Origin: Bacteroidales bacterium
GTDB taxonomy: Bacteria; Bacteroidota; Bacteroidia; Bacteroidales; DTU049
Direction of reading: 5' to 3'
NCBI GenBank assembly: GCA_026418905.1
Contig: JAOAAK010000003.1
Span: forward strand, 62,001-126,000
Length of the DNA: 64,000 nt
Shown: one piece after another, positions 2,043 to 31,710 of the stretch
Position numbering within the stretch: the first letter of the stretch is position 1
How the letters are laid out: every line of letters begins with the position of its first letter
Notes under the pieces: generated by a model
Told to the model about the DNA's origin: nothing
The model's input: only the letters and a program-made list of their open reading frames with translations
Databases searched by the model: none
Position numbers and translations under genes: made by a program

Positions 2043-3134
2043 CTAACGTATAAAACAACACTTCATGTATACGGGCTGGTGATCACTAAATTCAAAATTA
2101 TATTCAAAAGTTTTAACATCAAGAACTTCTATGTTAGGTGAAACAAGAAAATAATCAAGCGTAGTAACAGGAGTTTTGGTTGGTTCGTACGATTTATCAA
2201 CGGCACGATTGGTGGGTATGATTGAATCGTAAACCCATTTCCATCCCACAGGCATAAAATCTTTCAAAACAGGAATGCCTGAAGTCACACCTTGATAACC
2301 TGTTTTGTAAGCAAGCTTAAATCCAGGTGGATTAACGTTCCAATCACCACCTACGATTACATAATTTCCATCTTGATACCATTTCAAAACATAACTGCGC
2401 AACAATTGCATCTCGTAAATCCTCATCAAATCAGCTTCAGAAAAAGCCGAAAGATGTAAATTAACTACATATAAATACTTACCACTTCCCTGAACATAAA
2501 ACTTCTGTACCAATAGGCAACGTTGAAGCATAAAAAGTGATTTAGGCCATGAAAATAGCATGGGAAAAGCAAGACGCTTATTTTCTAAAGGGTAATATTT
2601 AGATAGGCTTACTAATCCACTATGAACATGTCCCATCGGCTTAAAAAAAGGCACAGGCACAAAAAAAGCTTGATAATTTTTAGCCGATGCTGACCAATAT
2701 GAGGGTAAAATATCTCTGATGATTTTGAATTGATTAACATAATAGCTTCTTCGAGCGTTGAAGTCTACTTCTTGCAATAATAATAAAGCAATAGAATCCA
2801 TGTTCTGCAATGTCTGGATTATACCGGAAAAGTTCTTTTCATATGAACCTTGGGGAGGAATCACCATATTTCCTCCATCGTAAAAAAAATTTTCGTTTTT
2901 TCCGAGTCCAGCATATCCTATATTCCACGTTAAGATCGAAATGGTATCGTAAAATTGTGGGTAATTATATGAAGTTTGATCTCCTCGATACAATAGGAGG
3001 CTTTCCTCAGGTAAAGGTCGATAACGGTGCATGGAATTTATAACCAAAATACTTACAATATAACTACAGAGCAAAATTATAACTATCAAAAATAGCCATG
3101 AAAAAAAACTTATAGCTTTTTTAAACGTTATCAT
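2043..3134 (-). CDS. Membrane-anchored endonuclease/exonuclease/phosphatase (EEP) family protein
   Basis: A 363-residue protein with one N-terminal membrane segment (about residues 8-32) followed by an EEP-fold domain, probably on the outer face of the inner membrane. Fold signatures are LTWNIGYAG (start of the core strand), LLLQEVDFNARRS (metal-binding Glu), VIVGGDWNVNPPG (DxN) and the C-terminal SDHQPVYMK (SDH catalytic His). The superfamily includes DNases, phosphoinositide phosphatases and sphingomyelinases; the sequence alone does not decide the substrate. Its ATG overlaps the antiporter stop by 4 nt, so the two are translationally coupled. Confidence 0.8.
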   Translation of the reverse strand: MITFKKAISFFSWLFLIVIILLCSYIVSILVINSMHRYRPLPEESLLLYRGDQTSYNYPQFYDTISILTWNIGYAGLGKNENFFYDGGNMVIPPQGSYEKNFSGIIQTLQNMDSIALLLLQEVDFNARRSYYVNQFKIIRDILPSYWSASAKNYQAFFVPVPFFKPMGHVHSGLVSLSKYYPLENKRLAFPMLFSWPKSLFMLQRCLLVQKFYVQGSGKYLYVVNLHLSAFSEADLMRIYEMQLLRSYVLKWYQDGNYVIVGGDWNVNPPGFKLAYKTGYQGVTSGIPVLKDFMPVGWKWVYDSIIPTNRAVDKSYEPTKTPVTTLDYFLVSPNIEVLDVKTFEYNFEFSDHQPVYMKCCFIR

Positions 3135-4054
3135 GATAAGTACAAGTAAAATGTATAAGCGATTCCGAATGAAAGCAAAATTGCCCCTTCTGCTCGTGAT
3201 ATCTTAAATTGAGTTCTACCAAAAAGCCATAAAAACACTACTGACATGAAGAAAACTAATGCATCAAGCCATTCGAAGGTAGTTGAAATTTTGGAAGAAA
3301 ATACAACAGACAAACCTCCAATAAGCAAAGCATTAAAAATATTAGAGCCTACAATATTTCCGACGGCAAAATCATATTCTTTTTTAAAGATAGAAACAAG
3401 AGAAACTGCCAGTTCAGGTAAACTCGTACCAACAGCAACAACAGTCAATGAAATGACTTTTTCTTCTATGCCTGCATAACGAGCAATAAAGGAAGCCGAA
3501 GTAATTAACAGATCAGAAGAAAAATATAACCCTACTAATCCACCAATGACAAAAACGATATTAACAAGCAATGGAAATTTTGAAATCATATCATCATCTA
3601 CCTCATAAGTACTTTTTTTGAACAAGAACCACATGTAAGAAATAAAAAGAATCAATGCAATAAAACCAATCCATCGTTCAAAAAAATTGAAAAAAATCAA
3701 TGTGGCATACAAAATCGTAACTACTAAAAGCACGGGAAAATCGTAGCGAAAACTTTGATCATTTATTTTAATCGGCTTTAATAGCGAAGTTAATCCAAGT
3801 ATGAGTAATATGTTAAAAATATTAGAGCCAACAATATTGCCCAAAGCTATTTGAGGAAAATTTTTTAAACTAGCAACGGTACTAACAAAGAGCTCAGGGG
3901 AGCTGGTGCCAAAACCAAGAATAACAACTCCTATAACAAACCGGCTAAAGCCTAATTTTATTCCAAGCTCTTTCGCTCCACGGATAAGCAACTCGGAAAA
4001 CAAGTATAACAGACCAATGCTTAAAAGCAAAAATATCACCTTCCAACCAATCAT
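3131..4054 (-). CDS. Calcium/sodium antiporter (CaCA family, YrbG-like)
   Basis: An inner-membrane cation exchanger of 307 aa with about ten hydrophobic segments. It shows the two inverted alpha repeats of the CaCA family. The first is GFGTSSPELFVS followed by ALGNIVGSNIFNILLILGL; the second is AVGTSLPELAVS followed by AVGNIVGSNIFNALLIGG. The acidic residues in the two GTSxPEL motifs are the family ion ligands. It probably exchanges Na+ (or H+) against Ca2+. It follows valS by 3 nt and is coupled to the downstream EEP gene. Confidence 0.93.
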   Translation of the reverse strand: MIGWKVIFLLLSIGLLYLFSELLIRGAKELGIKLGFSRFVIGVVILGFGTSSPELFVSTVASLKNFPQIALGNIVGSNIFNILLILGLTSLLKPIKINDQSFRYDFPVLLVVTILYATLIFFNFFERWIGFIALILFISYMWFLFKKSTYEVDDDMISKFPLLVNIVFVIGGLVGLYFSSDLLITSASFIARYAGIEEKVISLTVVAVGTSLPELAVSLVSIFKKEYDFAVGNIVGSNIFNALLIGGLSVVFSSKISTTFEWLDALVFFMSVVFLWLFGRTQFKISRAEGAILLSFGIAYTFYLYLS

Positions 4055-26097: not shown

Positions 26098-26422
26098 TCT
26101 TATCAATCAAGTTTCCAAATTCCTTATATGCATGGTCTATGGCTTTCATGAAATTTTCAACATTTTCTTTAAGTTGCTTTTTATAGAGAGATTTTGCTTC
26201 TTTTCTTTTTTGGTAACGTTCATGCTTTTTCAAACGTTTACCACGAAAAAATCGATGGTTAAGTGCATCAAGTACCTCCTGGTATTCTTGCTGAGTTTGA
26301 TCAAGTAATTCTTGAATTTTATCATCCTTCTGAGGGTAAATATCGCTCATTATAAGAGCGTCAGCAACAAAAATTCCTGCTATCCTCTTAATCCTTTTCT
26401 TCAATACTCTTTTGCTTGCCAT
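26090..26422 (-). CDS. Conserved small basic protein of unknown function
   Basis: 110 aa, highly charged and helical (about one third Lys, Arg, Glu or Asp) with a possible coiled coil at ~35-95 (DKIQELLDQTQQEYQEVL, KRKEAKSLYKKQLKENV). No signal peptide or membrane segment. It overlaps dxs upstream by 22 nt and the radical SAM gene downstream by 8 nt from its preferred ATG, so it is translationally coupled to both. Similar short basic proteins occur next to dxs-type genes in Bacteroidota, but I know no function. Confidence 0.6.
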   Translation of the reverse strand: MASKRVLKKRIKRIAGIFVADALIMSDIYPQKDDKIQELLDQTQQEYQEVLDALNHRFFRGKRLKKHERYQKRKEAKSLYKKQLKENVENFMKAIDHAYKEFGNLIDKNE

Positions 26423-28308
26423 GGTTCATTCATTTTTTTATAGTGAAACAATAAATGTTCATTCAAAATTACGCGAAAAATTCCATTTGCATCGTAACCT
26501 AATTTTTCTTTCAATTCAAAAATAGAACCATGTTCGACGAATCTATCTGGAACCCCGAGTCTAATGAGACGAACTCCATAATTATGTTCGGCTATATATT
26601 CAGCAATAGTCGAACCAAGACCACCATCGATAACACCATCCTCCACGGTAACAATGACAGCATGCTTTTCACATAAATGTCGGAGAGCATCTTGATCGAT
26701 AGGCTTTAAAAAACGCATGTTATAATGAGTAAATGATATATTTTTAGCTTCTAATCTATCATAAAGAGAAAGAACATCTAAACCAGGGGCTCCAATGGTG
26801 GCTATTCCAATGGTACATCCTTCGTGCAAAAGTTGTGCTTTACCGACAGGTAAAACTTCCCATGTTTTTTCCCATTTTAGATGATGTGCCTCGCCACGAG
26901 GATAACGAATTGCAAAAGGTTTATTTAAGTCGATAGCTTGTGCCGTATACAACATATCCTGAAGTTCAAATTCATCCATAGGAGCACCAATGATAATATT
27001 GGGGATAAGGCGAAGATAAGCAAGATCAAAAATTCCCTGGTGAGTTGCTCCATCTTCCCCGACGAGACCTCCTCGATCGATGCACATAACGACAGGAGCT
27101 CTTTGCAGAGCTACATCATGGATAAGTTGGTCATAGCCTCGTTGTAAAAAAGTGGAATAAATAGTACAATAAGGTATTTTTCCTGCCAATGCAAGACCTG
27201 CAGCGAAAGTAACAGCATGTTGTTCCGCAATACCCACATCAAATACACGATCCGGAAATTTTTCTTTCATGAATGTCAATGCACTTCCAGTTAGCATGGC
27301 TGGTGTGATAGCCACAATCTTAGGGTTTGTCTCAGCTAATTTTAAAAGAGTCTTTCCAAAAACCACATGCATCTTGGGTGGCTTATTTTCTTGATCTTCA
27401 TCACAAACTTTACCTGTTTCTATGTCAAATTTGCCCGGGCTATGGTAGGTAATTTGGTCCTTTTCAGCAGGTTTAAAGCCTTTTCCTTTTACTGTTAAAA
27501 CGTGTAGTACTTTTGGTCCTGGGACATCTTTTAAATCCTTCAAAACATATATGAGCTTCTTTATATCATGACCATCAACAGGCCCAAAATATCGGATACC
27601 AAAAATTTCAAAAATATTAGCTTTTTTAAACCAAGTCCATTTAATAGCTGCAAACAAATTAGTGATAAGCACGTGCAACCAAGTACCTTTTAAAAAACGC
27701 CAAAAACGATATTTGATAAAATTATACGTGTGGGAAGCTGTAATTCGAGTAAAATGTTGAGCAAGAGCAGTGCGGTTTTTGTCAATTGACATACCATTGT
27801 CATTGAGAATAATAAGAATATTGGCTTTAGCCTGACTGATGTTATTCAACGCTTCAAATGGCTGACCAGCTGTGAAACTACCATCACCAATAACAGCAAT
27901 GTAATGATTTTGTGACGATTCTTCTCCCATAGCTAATCCCAAAGCAGCTGACAAACTTGTACTGCTATGCCCCGTACCGAAAACATCATGTTCACTTTCT
28001 TCACGTAAGGGAAATCCGCTAATTCCGCCCAGTTGCCTTAAAGTATGAAAACGATCTTTCCTACCTGTCAAAATTTTATGAACATACGATTGATGACCAA
28101 CATCCCATATAATCTTATCTTGAGGAGAATTAAACACATAATGAAGAGCTATGCTTAATTCTACTACTCCAAGATTAGCACCTAAATGTCCAGGATGTTT
28201 TGAATTTATCTCAATAAGAAAATTTCTGATCTCTTCAGCGAGAAGAGGCAACTTTTCCCGTGGAATCTTTTTAAGATCATCTGGAGTGTTTATTTTTTCT
28301 AGCCACAT
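26401..28308 (-). CDS. dxs: 1-deoxy-D-xylulose-5-phosphate synthase
   Basis: 635 aa. ThDP-dependent first enzyme of the MEP isoprenoid pathway, joining pyruvate and glyceraldehyde-3-phosphate. Landmarks: GHLGANLGVVELSIALHY, DVGHQSYVHKILTGR, the ThDP-Mg motif GDGSFTAGQPFEALNN ... ILNDNGMSI, and the transketolase-like DRGGLVGEDGATHQG. Full length and intact. It is the first gene of the minus-strand run that continues to the PhnP-like gene. A polyprenyl synthase that would use its products lies at 48005-48997. Confidence 0.96.
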   Translation of the reverse strand: MWLEKINTPDDLKKIPREKLPLLAEEIRNFLIEINSKHPGHLGANLGVVELSIALHYVFNSPQDKIIWDVGHQSYVHKILTGRKDRFHTLRQLGGISGFPLREESEHDVFGTGHSSTSLSAALGLAMGEESSQNHYIAVIGDGSFTAGQPFEALNNISQAKANILIILNDNGMSIDKNRTALAQHFTRITASHTYNFIKYRFWRFLKGTWLHVLITNLFAAIKWTWFKKANIFEIFGIRYFGPVDGHDIKKLIYVLKDLKDVPGPKVLHVLTVKGKGFKPAEKDQITYHSPGKFDIETGKVCDEDQENKPPKMHVVFGKTLLKLAETNPKIVAITPAMLTGSALTFMKEKFPDRVFDVGIAEQHAVTFAAGLALAGKIPYCTIYSTFLQRGYDQLIHDVALQRAPVVMCIDRGGLVGEDGATHQGIFDLAYLRLIPNIIIGAPMDEFELQDMLYTAQAIDLNKPFAIRYPRGEAHHLKWEKTWEVLPVGKAQLLHEGCTIGIATIGAPGLDVLSLYDRLEAKNISFTHYNMRFLKPIDQDALRHLCEKHAVIVTVEDGVIDGGLGSTIAEYIAEHNYGVRLIRLGVPDRFVEHGSIFELKEKLGYDANGIFRVILNEHLLFHYKKMNEPWQAKEY

Positions 28309-28565: not shown

Positions 28566-29423
28566 ATGTTCAAAAAAATTAGTGAAGTTTCTAAACTGAT
28601 AACAGAGAGTTCTTTATTTCAAAACTTTATTGTTTTCCTAATCTTATTTTCAGCTGTTGTAATAGGGTTAGAAACATATTCGGGATTTGTAAAAAAATTT
28701 CATCATGAATTATTGATAGCTGATCGAATTATCATTGCCTTTTTTTCACTTGAAATCATTTTAAAGATTTTGGCTCAAGGTAGGAAGCCACTATCTTATT
28801 TCAAAGATGGATGGAATGTTTTCGATTTTATAATAGTAGCTGTTTGTTTGATACCAGCAGGTGATACACACATCTTTGCAGTTTTGCGAATTTTACGAGT
28901 CCTGAGAGTTTTCAGAATGATTACCGCATTACCAAAGTTAAAACTAATTGTTTCTGCTTTACTCAGAAGTATCCCTTCTATGGGATATGTCATCGTGCTT
29001 ATAGGGCTTTTGTTTTATGTTTATGCCATCGTTGGAGTTTTCGCCTTTGGTGAAAAGGATCCTTTTCATTTTGGCAATCTCCATTATGCTATGATTACTC
29101 TTTTCAAAATACTTACCCTTGAAGGATGGGTTGAAATTATGGATGTCATTGTTATTGACAATTCATCAGGTTCACCTAAAGTCATTTCCTATATTCCCTT
29201 CTTTTATTTTGCCAGTTTTATTCTCATAGGGGCTATGATAGTAATGAATCTTTTCATAGGAGTTATCATCAATAGCATGGAGGAATCCCAAAAAGAAATG
29301 TTACAAGAGAAAAAATCAAAAATGAATATTTCCAATACTGATGATATGTATGAAATCATACTTCAACGCATTGAAGAATTAACCAATGAGATTAAAAACT
29401 TAAAAAACAATAATTCTCAATAA
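28566..29423 (+). CDS. Voltage-gated ion channel, BacNav/NaChBac type
   Basis: 285 aa with the six-helix voltage-gated channel plan. S1 is at ~15-37, S3 contains WNVFDFIIVAVCLIP, and S4 carries regularly spaced arginines (LRILRVLRVFRMITALPKLK). S5 is SMGYVIVLIGLLFYVYAI, the pore loop has the filter TLEGWVE (184-190), and S6 is MIVMNLFIGVIINSM. The C-terminal helix (MYEIILQRIEELTNEIKNL) is the coiled coil that tetramerises these channels. The filter differs from the TLESWAS/TLESWSM of known sodium channels at the fourth and later positions. It appears to be a single-gene unit with its own promoter. Confidence 0.9.
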   Translation: MFKKISEVSKLITESSLFQNFIVFLILFSAVVIGLETYSGFVKKFHHELLIADRIIIAFFSLEIILKILAQGRKPLSYFKDGWNVFDFIIVAVCLIPAGDTHIFAVLRILRVLRVFRMITALPKLKLIVSALLRSIPSMGYVIVLIGLLFYVYAIVGVFAFGEKDPFHFGNLHYAMITLFKILTLEGWVEIMDVIVIDNSSGSPKVISYIPFFYFASFILIGAMIVMNLFIGVIINSMEESQKEMLQEKKSKMNISNTDDMYEIILQRIEELTNEIKNLKNNNSQ

Positions 29424-29487: not shown

Positions 29488-31710
29488 CTAATGAATGATA
29501 CATATCTTTCCATAAGTGTTAATGTAGGCATCCTTTTTAACAGAATATGTCAGCTTATAAACATAACAATCCTGGGGTAAGATTTTTCCTTTATAAGTAC
29601 CATCCCACCTTACATTGAAGTCCGTCGTACGGAAAACTAATTTTCCCCACTTATCATAAATGGCAAGATCAAAATATTCCGGATTAATACCCATGCCATA
29701 AACATGAAAATAATCATTAACTCCATCTTCATTGGGTGAAAAAGCTTCAGGAATATAGAGTGTAAAAAGGTTTTGAACATATACTTTACCGTACGTACTA
29801 TCGCAACAACCTAATTGATTACATACCTTAAACATTACTTGATATTCTCCTTCTCCTGGATAAGTATGAATTGGATTGCAGTCTTGACTGAAAGTTCCAT
29901 CACCGAAAGACCAAAAGCATTGGGTTCCTCCTGTGCTTTGATCAATGAAGCTTATTTCTGGATTATCAACAGTAGCAATAGGTGGAATTGCCTCAAAGTC
30001 AGCTTTTGGTCCACCCAATTGAGGTACAGTATAAGATCCTGTAACAGCACATTGATTTTGGTCAAAAACAGTCACAGTATATACGCCTGCTGAAATATTT
30101 TGAAGTGGATTGCTGTTTCCACCATTACTCCATTGATAAATGTATGGAGGAAAACCACCAGCTACGTTTAACTGAATACTTCCGTCTTTCTGACCGCAAT
30201 TTTCAGGTGTTATATTGGCAGAAATAATCGAATGAATATCGTAAACTGAAATTGTTATCTGAGCTTGATCAGTGCAACCAGTTGCTGTAACAGTGCCTGT
30301 CACAGTATAAACAGTTGTAGTCGAAACAGTAGCAATGGGATTAGCAATGTTAGGATTGTTTAACCCGGTAGCAGGTGACCACGTATAAGTGTCAGCACCT
30401 GTAGCCCAAAGTTGCACAGATTTACCAGGACAAATGGTTGTGTCAGGCCCTGCCTGAACATCGCAAGGATTGACCACATTGCATGAAGGAGGAGCTGTAT
30501 AATAAATGGTATCATTACAAGTGGGTGCGTTGGAGAAATATACAACTACATAATGTTGTTGACCATCCGCTTGAATACCAGTAATGGTAAAATTTTGAGG
30601 ACTGGTAAATGGAGCATTAAAAGTAACATTTTGTCCTGCTTGATCTTGGACTATTAACTGACCAGTGGTAGGCTGTCCACTGAAGGTCACTGTACCGCTA
30701 ACGCTATATGTATTCGTAGCAGGATTGCATTGACCAACATTAATCTGAAAGTTGTCTATATTGCATGTTACCACCGCACAGCTAGCTGCACCATTTCCAC
30801 TAGTTTGTTCAAAAACCAAAGTCCCTTCAGCATCTTCAAAATTGGTTATCAATAGTATATAAAAATCCCCCACTTGAGCATTATAAATATGCAAATACTC
30901 TTCAGAAGCCGGATCGTAACTACAATCAACCACATTGCCTACGGGATAATAAGTAGGATTGCTTGTGTTGTTGGGACAATTCGCACATGATGCACATCCC
31001 GTTAATTGATTACAAGCTCCATTTAAAGAATTAAAAGGCCCATAACAAATAAAATCTACATCATTACCATTGGGAGAATAAATATGAATGATAATATCAC
31101 CAGGTTGGTCAACAAACATGTAGTACCAGATAGGATTAGGTTGGGAACATAGACAACCATATTCTGGTCCAGTTTCAGCTGATGAACCCACGGCCATAGG
31201 GAAAAAATAAGTAGTATCCGTACAAAATGGTTGAGCATCAGCACAGGTAGTACCTATAGCTTCAAAGGTTAAAGTAACACATTCTGCACCTCCTGTATTA
31301 CCACATCCACCCCACAAACCTCCACATAACCCAAATATGCCAGTACATTTGCTCACCAAAAGAGTGACTGTACCAGTAAAATTGGCTGTCCATACAATAG
31401 CTGAATTATTGCCACATCCTCCTAAATTATTATTATGAGCTAACTCTGTACCACCACAACCCATTCCTTGATATAGTGTTAAGTACGTATCAAAACCATT
31501 ATTACCGCATGTGGTCCAAATATATGTTACACCGTTCACCACATTGTAATAAGCATAATCCCCCCCATGCACGCAATTCGATACGGTAATCTTTTGACCG
31601 ATATTTACCGAAAACGAACCTGCGGGATTATTTACATTACAATTTGAGCATTGCCCCCAAACATTTATTAACCAGAAAATTAAAAAAATAAGTAAGCCAA
31701 TATTTTTCAT
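29488..31710 (-). CDS. T9SS type-B exported surface protein with PKD domain
   Basis: 740 aa. A signal peptide (~1-19) is followed by cysteine-rich beta domains (~20-330), Ig-like segments (~330-560, with PGKSVQLWATGADTYTWSP and GGFPPYIYQWSNGG, a SprB-like repeat), and a PKD domain (~575-650, FWSFGDGTFSQDCNPIHTYP). The C-terminal type-B T9SS sorting domain has FSPNEDGVNDYFHVYGM and YDKWGKLVF. These proteins reach the cell surface or medium through PorU-independent or attachment routes. The molecular role is unknown. The gene starts 8 nt after the small secreted-protein gene at 31719-32180. Confidence 0.85.
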   Translation of the reverse strand: MKNIGLLIFLIFWLINVWGQCSNCNVNNPAGSFSVNIGQKITVSNCVHGGDYAYYNVVNGVTYIWTTCGNNGFDTYLTLYQGMGCGGTELAHNNNLGGCGNNSAIVWTANFTGTVTLLVSKCTGIFGLCGGLWGGCGNTGGAECVTLTFEAIGTTCADAQPFCTDTTYFFPMAVGSSAETGPEYGCLCSQPNPIWYYMFVDQPGDIIIHIYSPNGNDVDFICYGPFNSLNGACNQLTGCASCANCPNNTSNPTYYPVGNVVDCSYDPASEEYLHIYNAQVGDFYILLITNFEDAEGTLVFEQTSGNGAASCAVVTCNIDNFQINVGQCNPATNTYSVSGTVTFSGQPTTGQLIVQDQAGQNVTFNAPFTSPQNFTITGIQADGQQHYVVVYFSNAPTCNDTIYYTAPPSCNVVNPCDVQAGPDTTICPGKSVQLWATGADTYTWSPATGLNNPNIANPIATVSTTTVYTVTGTVTATGCTDQAQITISVYDIHSIISANITPENCGQKDGSIQLNVAGGFPPYIYQWSNGGNSNPLQNISAGVYTVTVFDQNQCAVTGSYTVPQLGGPKADFEAIPPIATVDNPEISFIDQSTGGTQCFWSFGDGTFSQDCNPIHTYPGEGEYQVMFKVCNQLGCCDSTYGKVYVQNLFTLYIPEAFSPNEDGVNDYFHVYGMGINPEYFDLAIYDKWGKLVFRTTDFNVRWDGTYKGKILPQDCYVYKLTYSVKKDAYINTYGKICIIH

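Follow-up and report, generated by a model that had tools for sequence, protein, structure and literature searches.

A predicted voltage-gated channel of the AnclNav group with a CavMr-like selectivity filter in a Bacteroidales genome, and divalent-cation transporter genes beside its relatives

The window analysed here, a stretch of 64,000 nucleotides from a Bacteroidales bacterium, contains a gene for an ion channel whose pore loop includes the residues TLEGWVE. This raises the question of whether the channel conducts Ca2+, as does CavMr of Meiothermus ruber, or Na+, as do the canonical bacterial sodium channels (BacNavs). CavMr is called the only identified prokaryotic Cav in a 2026 paper (PMC12919392), and its filter, 183-TLEGWVD-189, is reported to give a PCa/PNa >200 (PMC7041947). 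The first-pass annotation had cited this filter and the role of its Gly at position 4, in agreement with PMC7041947, and had taken the Gly and the extra acidic residue of TLEGWVE as signs of a Ca2+-permeable or mixed channel. Literature searches for TLEGWVE, and for BacNav together with Bacteroidetes and selectivity filter, found no paper.

The gene is an intact open reading frame with an ATG start, and its 285-aa product matches the Pfam Ion_trans family (PF00520) at 8.3e-50. It is the sole PF00520 match across the 2.11-Mb source genome, and a search of NCBIfam with the protein matched no family. An AlphaFold monomer model, which was built from 57 aligned sequences and has no direct bearing on the tetrameric filter, has a mean pLDDT of 88 and a pTM of 0.65, and S1-S6, the pore helices flanking the filter and a C-terminal helix are visible in it. 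When the PDB was searched with the model, the best match was NavAb (5vb2_D, E 9.7e-14), and CavAb was also among the best matches. The channel and its parts are as follows.

28566..29423, + strand: single-domain (6TM) voltage-gated cation channel of AnclNav type (open reading frame, PF00520, AlphaFold model and trees)
28611..28850, + strand: S1-S3 helices, residues 16-36, 46-70 and 82-95 (DSSP of the model)
28866..28928, + strand: S4 voltage-sensor helix, residues 101-121 (model helix and S4 strings)
28971..29321, + strand: pore, with S5 (136-161), P1 (172-183), the filter, P2 (188-196) and S6 with neck (210-252) (DSSP of the model)
29115..29135, + strand: selectivity filter T184-L-E-G-W-V-E190 (translation, coordinates and alignment to relatives)
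29136..29207, + strand: L6 outer loop from filter to S6, 24 residues without cysteine (sequence comparison)
29337..29417, + strand: C-terminal helix, residues 258-284 (AlphaFold model)

Translation places the filter exactly where it had first been annotated, with the codon of T184 beginning at 29115 and that of E190 ending at 29135, and in the model, a channel of six helices, it sits in the pore loop, i.e. it is not a chance motif. S4 has arginines at 108, 111, 114 and 117, one every third position. R108, R111 and R114 are invariant across the 57 sequences of the alignment (A3), as are F60, E63 and D87 in S1-S3, and therefore the voltage sensor looks complete. The C-terminal helix is probably a coiled coil of BacNav type, the role that this helix has in BacNavs generally. 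There are six departures from residues kept in at least 85% of 56 relatives, among them a one-residue gap in the outer loop and, at filter position 7, Glu where the relatives have Asp; the residues invariant among AnclNavs are all retained, and departures at near-invariant residues are few and mostly conservative. The gene does not look decayed.

Relatives were drawn from a scan of genome contigs, which gave at least 80 named loci, and from Bacteroidota genomes, which gave further loci. Some loci are the same stretch in both genome collections (L084 = L128, L083 = L116, L035 = L156, L045 = L114 and L127 = L142), and counts across the two are thus non-independent. Filter columns were excluded from a 90-row tree, before which 14 near-duplicates and nine loci were left out: L001 and L002 (the window itself) and L018, L024, L025, L027, L029, L031 and L032 (fused, partial or divergent). 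Placement was repeated with a 35-row tree. The trees contained NavMs, NavAb-like rows and NavPp, represented by L109 from Plesiocystis pacifica SIR-1 (filter TLEDWTD, with filter and source species as published); CavMr and NaChBac were absent. The window channel belongs to the AnclNav (ancestor-like BacNav) group, and falls with NavPp on the AnclNav side, apart from the NavMs and NavAb-like rows (100/100 with 90 rows, 100/99 with 35 rows). The canonical BacNavs (NavAb, NavMs and NaChBac) have the same overall fold and one-domain design, but are Na+ selective, have a TLESW filter and occupy the separate side of the tree (100/100 for NavMs and the NavAb-like rows). They also have an extra residue after the filter, seen in L017, L020, L028, L030 and NavMs and missing from the window channel. 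The placement thus bears out the earlier suggestion of a CavMr-like filter in a Bacteroidota member that stands apart from canonical Na+ channels. It is qualified by the grouping with NavPp, itself modestly Na+-selective.

Within the AnclNavs, the window channel lies in a clade of 7 rows (100/97, 90-row tree), or of 8 rows with L127 (100/100, 35-row tree), whose members are all Bacteroidota as far as they are named or placed. Its own branch is longer than that of its sister (0.86 vs 0.23, 90-row tree). Gly4 is present in every row of the clade (7/7 and 8/8). As is typical of AnclNav filters, which have Gly or more negative residues and an acidic or polar position 7, the neighbours of the window channel have TLEGW[TI]D: TLEGWTD is the filter of six of the seven non-redundant sisters, TLEGWID also occurs, and TLEGWVE is present in the window only. 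The exact 7-mer TLEGWVE was absent from the 110 other loci listed and from a further 24. Of the 80 named loci listed, 55 have Asp at position 4, 21 have Gly and 4 have Asn, and position 7 is Asp in 50 of the 56 aligned relatives (A3), in contrast to Glu in the window. Gly4 was rejected as a clade marker, as it changes about 10 times on the 90-row tree, with at least six changes forced by starred branches. It also occurs on the canonical (NavAb-like) side, in L023 and L015, and in L027, which is not in the tree. The filters of these three loci are TLEGWAD or TLEGWAE, and L023 and L015 are natural tests of Gly4 on a canonical backbone. Additionally, L119, L123, L124, L133, L134, L135 and L137 form a divergent Bacteroidota Ion_trans family with the filter T[VI]EGW[YF][ED], apparently distinct from the AnclNavs.

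Published mutants indicate which of these residues matter. According to PMC7041947, CavMr needs Gly4 and Val6 for Ca2+ selectivity while position 7 is dispensable: PCa/PNa falls to 7.7 in G4D and to 11.9 in G4S, is also lowered by V6T, and remains 144 in D7M. The same source describes NavPp as modestly Na+-selective with Ca2+ block, and reports a PCa/PNa of 215 for NavPp carrying the CavMr filter. NavPp-D4G (TLEGWTD) gains Ca2+/Sr2+ selectivity but is more permeable to K+ and Cs+, and CavMr-V6T, also TLEGWTD, passes K+ and Cs+ (PMC7041947). One-domain channels with a Gly just above the Glu ring are classed as Ca2+-selective in PMC10120453. Gly4 must be read together with the backbone, because NavAb S178G (TLEGWSM) stays at PCa/PNa <0.01, being Ca2+-impermeable and Li+-selective over Na+ (PMC12919392). 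Two simpler arguments are rejected by these data, namely that Gly4 is sufficient alone for Ca2+ selectivity (by NavAb S178G) and that the extra acidic residue is the main argument for Ca2+ (by CavMr-D7M).

In comparison to CavMr by its published description, the window channel shares TLEGWVx, with Gly4 (G187), Val6 (V189) and an acidic position 7 (E190), and CavMr is likewise a one-domain voltage-gated channel of AnclNav kind (PMC7041947). Position 7 is Asp in CavMr and Glu in the window, and the hosts belong to different phyla. CavMr is also reported to have an extended L6 loop that carries a disulfide (PMC10120453), a correlate rather than a proven requirement, whereas the L6 of the window channel, like that of the sisters L033-L036 and L039, has 24 residues and no cysteine. 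NavPp, the only characterised AnclNav in the trees and the nearest characterised relative placed, shares the AnclNav backbone at 41.5% identity over 282 aligned residues. It has three of the four S4 arginines, with Lys at the fourth, and differs by Asp4/Thr6 in place of Gly4/Val6 and by an L6 of 35 residues with 2 cysteines. Human CaV3.3 domain I contains the identical seven residues, TLEGWVE, with similar flanks (7wli_A alignment), but belongs to a 24-helix channel made of four dissimilar domains, and this identity over a short loop is probably convergent.

Because an AnclNav backbone with Gly4 and Val6 is the combination reported as Ca2+-selective in both backbones tested (CavMr and NavPp), the window channel is probably Ca2+-selective, perhaps with broader divalent permeability. 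The Gly of the original argument stands when joined to Val6 and the AnclNav backbone; the acidic residue, dispensable in CavMr, does not carry it. The Ca2+ reading is thus likely, for a slightly different reason than first given. The 7-mer shared with CaV3.3 domain I and the retained AnclNav residues also speak for it, whereas the lack of the L6 disulfide, the longer branch, the Na+ preference of NavPp and the behaviour of NavAb S178G speak against it. The most plausible overall description, in which we have a fair degree of confidence on sequence grounds, is of a homotetrameric voltage-gated Ca2+-selective channel with a CavMr-like filter mechanism. Four AnclNav-group one-domain subunits would assemble, depolarisation would move the four-arginine S4 and open the S5-S6 gate, and Ca2+ would enter via a wide-mouthed filter. 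The four Glu186 (position 3) would form a ring binding Ca2+, Gly187 (position 4) would keep the mouth clear so that divalent ions could enter hydrated, Val189 (position 6) would help to exclude monovalent ions, as in CavMr, and Glu190 (position 7) would add an outer negative charge that is probably not essential. Such a channel would be expected to have a PCa/PNa well above 10. The window channel is thus a strong candidate to join CavMr as a naturally occurring calcium channel of bacteria, of the CavMr/AnclNav kind, and with its sisters offers three natural filters (TLEGWVE, TLEGWTD and TLEGWID) on one backbone, on which the rules for Gly4, residue 6 and residue 7 are testable without engineering.

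The surroundings of the gene include the following features.

26401..28308, - strand: dxs (DXP synthase), divergent upstream neighbour across a 257-bp gap, not thought to be functionally linked
29488..31710, - strand: T9SS-sorted PKD/SprB-repeat protein, convergent downstream neighbour across a 64-bp gap, not thought to be linked
3131..4054, - strand: Na+/Ca2+ exchanger-family gene (CaCA, PF01699), ~25 kb from the channel

The channel gene is solitary between the first two. Comparison with nine relatives found no synteny beyond the channel itself, save an exchanger homologue in L034. The exchanger gene is the only one of its kind found in the source genome, is common (11/14 controls), and might be a Ca2+ exit route for the channel. 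The source genome has no TerC, Cation_ATPase_C or EF-hand_7 match, an Rfam search at the channel gene found no Mn2+ riboswitch or other match, and a terminator and promoter scan there gave fewer promoter-like sites than in shuffles. The lack of TerC, Cation_ATPase_C and EF-hand_7 matches beside a solitary channel gene weighs against the Ca2+ reading.

Divalent-cation transporter genes are found beside most of the sister channels, and beside a second, distant set.

L033:302-1165, L035:4437-5974, L036:50-961, L039:5342-7798 and L127:2375-3798, same strand as the channel: TerC (and DedA) genes that seem to share an operon with the channel gene
L080:3708-6879, L099:5039-6804 and L110:4304-8789: Verrucomicrobiota AnclNavs beside TerC

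In the first five loci, a TerC gene (PF03741) adjoins the channel gene or lies one gene away; the spacing is a few bases or an overlap in some sisters, and gene order varies between them. A DedA/VTT gene is also present in L035, L039 and L127. TerC is thus beside the channel in 5/7 non-redundant sisters. The sixth, L034, has a Na+/Ca2+ exchanger gene in that position, and in L005 the 8 kb read to either side contains neither gene; its near-copy L004, equally without TerC, was omitted from the count. Among the at least 80 named loci, TerC lies within 1.5 kb in 4/5 clade members vs 3/75 others (Fisher p 1.1e-4, which overstates independence because the loci are related; in 12 of the 80, the sequence on one side is shorter than 1.5 kb). 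Those three non-members form a clade of their own in Verrucomicrobiota, with the filters TLDNWSD (L080), TLDDWRN (L099) and TLDNWGD (L110); CNNM/CorC genes are close by in L080 and L110, and in L080 and L099 the channel gene directly abuts its neighbours. TerC was also the commonest family (5) among 46 close same-strand neighbour genes scanned, i.e. 48 minus two of L140 that seem to repeat those of L043. An exchanger beside the channel was found only in L034 among the loci examined, and is weak as a general rule. A narrow literature search pairing TerC with NaChBac found no paper, and the matches listed by a broader search on TerC and voltage-gated channels looked unrelated by title.

TerC proteins have been connected with metalation and the efflux of Mn2+ (PMC10550928), and the LysE superfamily, to which they belong, also contains Ca2+/H+ antiporters (PMC4608589). 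Pairing with TerC speaks for divalent permeation among the channels of the clade, and the transporter genes beside the sisters lend support to the Ca2+ reading, although TerC linkage is not directly applicable to the window channel because its source genome has no TerC match. More speculatively, these Bacteroidota channels could be a clade, distinct from CavMr, of naturally occurring channels that are voltage-gated and conduct Ca2+ or divalent ions more broadly, each the entry half of a small divalent-cation module next to TerC (and DedA) or to a Na+/Ca2+ exchanger, with the distant TLDNW/TLDDW set of Verrucomicrobiota paired with TerC and CNNM/CorC; we regard this as possible rather than probable. 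If true, membrane voltage would be linked to divalent-metal traffic in bacteria via dedicated operons. What is newest in this analysis is that TerC linkage extends across the clade. Recurrent linkage to TerC or an exchanger might be unexpected to specialists, and such neighbours provide a handle on the purpose of bacterial voltage-gated divalent entry.

Other readings of the window channel were weighed against a Ca2+-selective channel. It could be weakly selective or Na+-permeable, passing Na+, K+ and Ca2+ and blocked or modulated by external Ca2+ in the manner of NavPp, which lies on its side of the tree. The behaviour of the two TLEGWTD mutants suggests that the sister filters may be leaky, and Glu7 on a Gly4/Val6 filter is without published precedent among the mutants compared. 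Yet Asp4 and Thr6 of NavPp are precisely the residues that differ, and swapping in both Gly4 and Val6 gave the reported PCa/PNa of 215 (PMC7041947), so that this reading is rather unlikely. A Na+/Li+ channel of NavAb type that happens to carry Gly4 would resemble engineered NavAb S178G, in which Ca2+ is excluded (PMC12919392), and L023 and L015 show that Gly4 occurs naturally on the canonical side; placement on the AnclNav side (100/100), the missing post-filter residue and the lack of Met/Ser at position 7 make it extremely unlikely here.

The physiological cargo could instead be Mn2+ or several divalents, the channel serving as a metal-uptake route whose partner, for most clade members, is a TerC-type exporter. 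The Mn2+ roles reported for TerC proteins (PMC10550928), their place beside five sister channels, three of these with DedA, and the CNNM/CorC genes near the related L080 and L110 are consistent with this. However, the window genome is without a TerC match, L034 has an exchanger instead, and Rfam searches found no Mn2+ riboswitch or other match in L033, L035, L036, L039 and L142, as at the window gene. For the window channel, Mn2+ uptake thus seems very unlikely, and a Ca2+-selective channel remains the preferred reading.

Few genomes related to that of the window carry close homologues. At E <=1e-20, a threshold loose enough to let in other Ion_trans families, 11/198 genomes match in its order and 15/395 in its class; with L036 as query, 5/393 genomes match at 1e-50 (the window's genome is included in each count). 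This patchy distribution fits loss or horizontal transfer. Among the 11 other genomes of the window's family, TerC is present in 10 and a channel match in one, which is weak (9.6e-4, 24% identity). Together with the window genome, which has the channel and not TerC, this forms a mirror-image pattern, in a single case. The matching genomes of the order include the Bacteroidales MAG ZodW_Metabat.383 (L084 = L128). Additionally, L045 comes from a MAG labelled Candidatus Competibacteraceae (Pseudomonadota) and is the same stretch as L114, from a genome placed in the window's class; the Competibacteraceae label is probably wrong.
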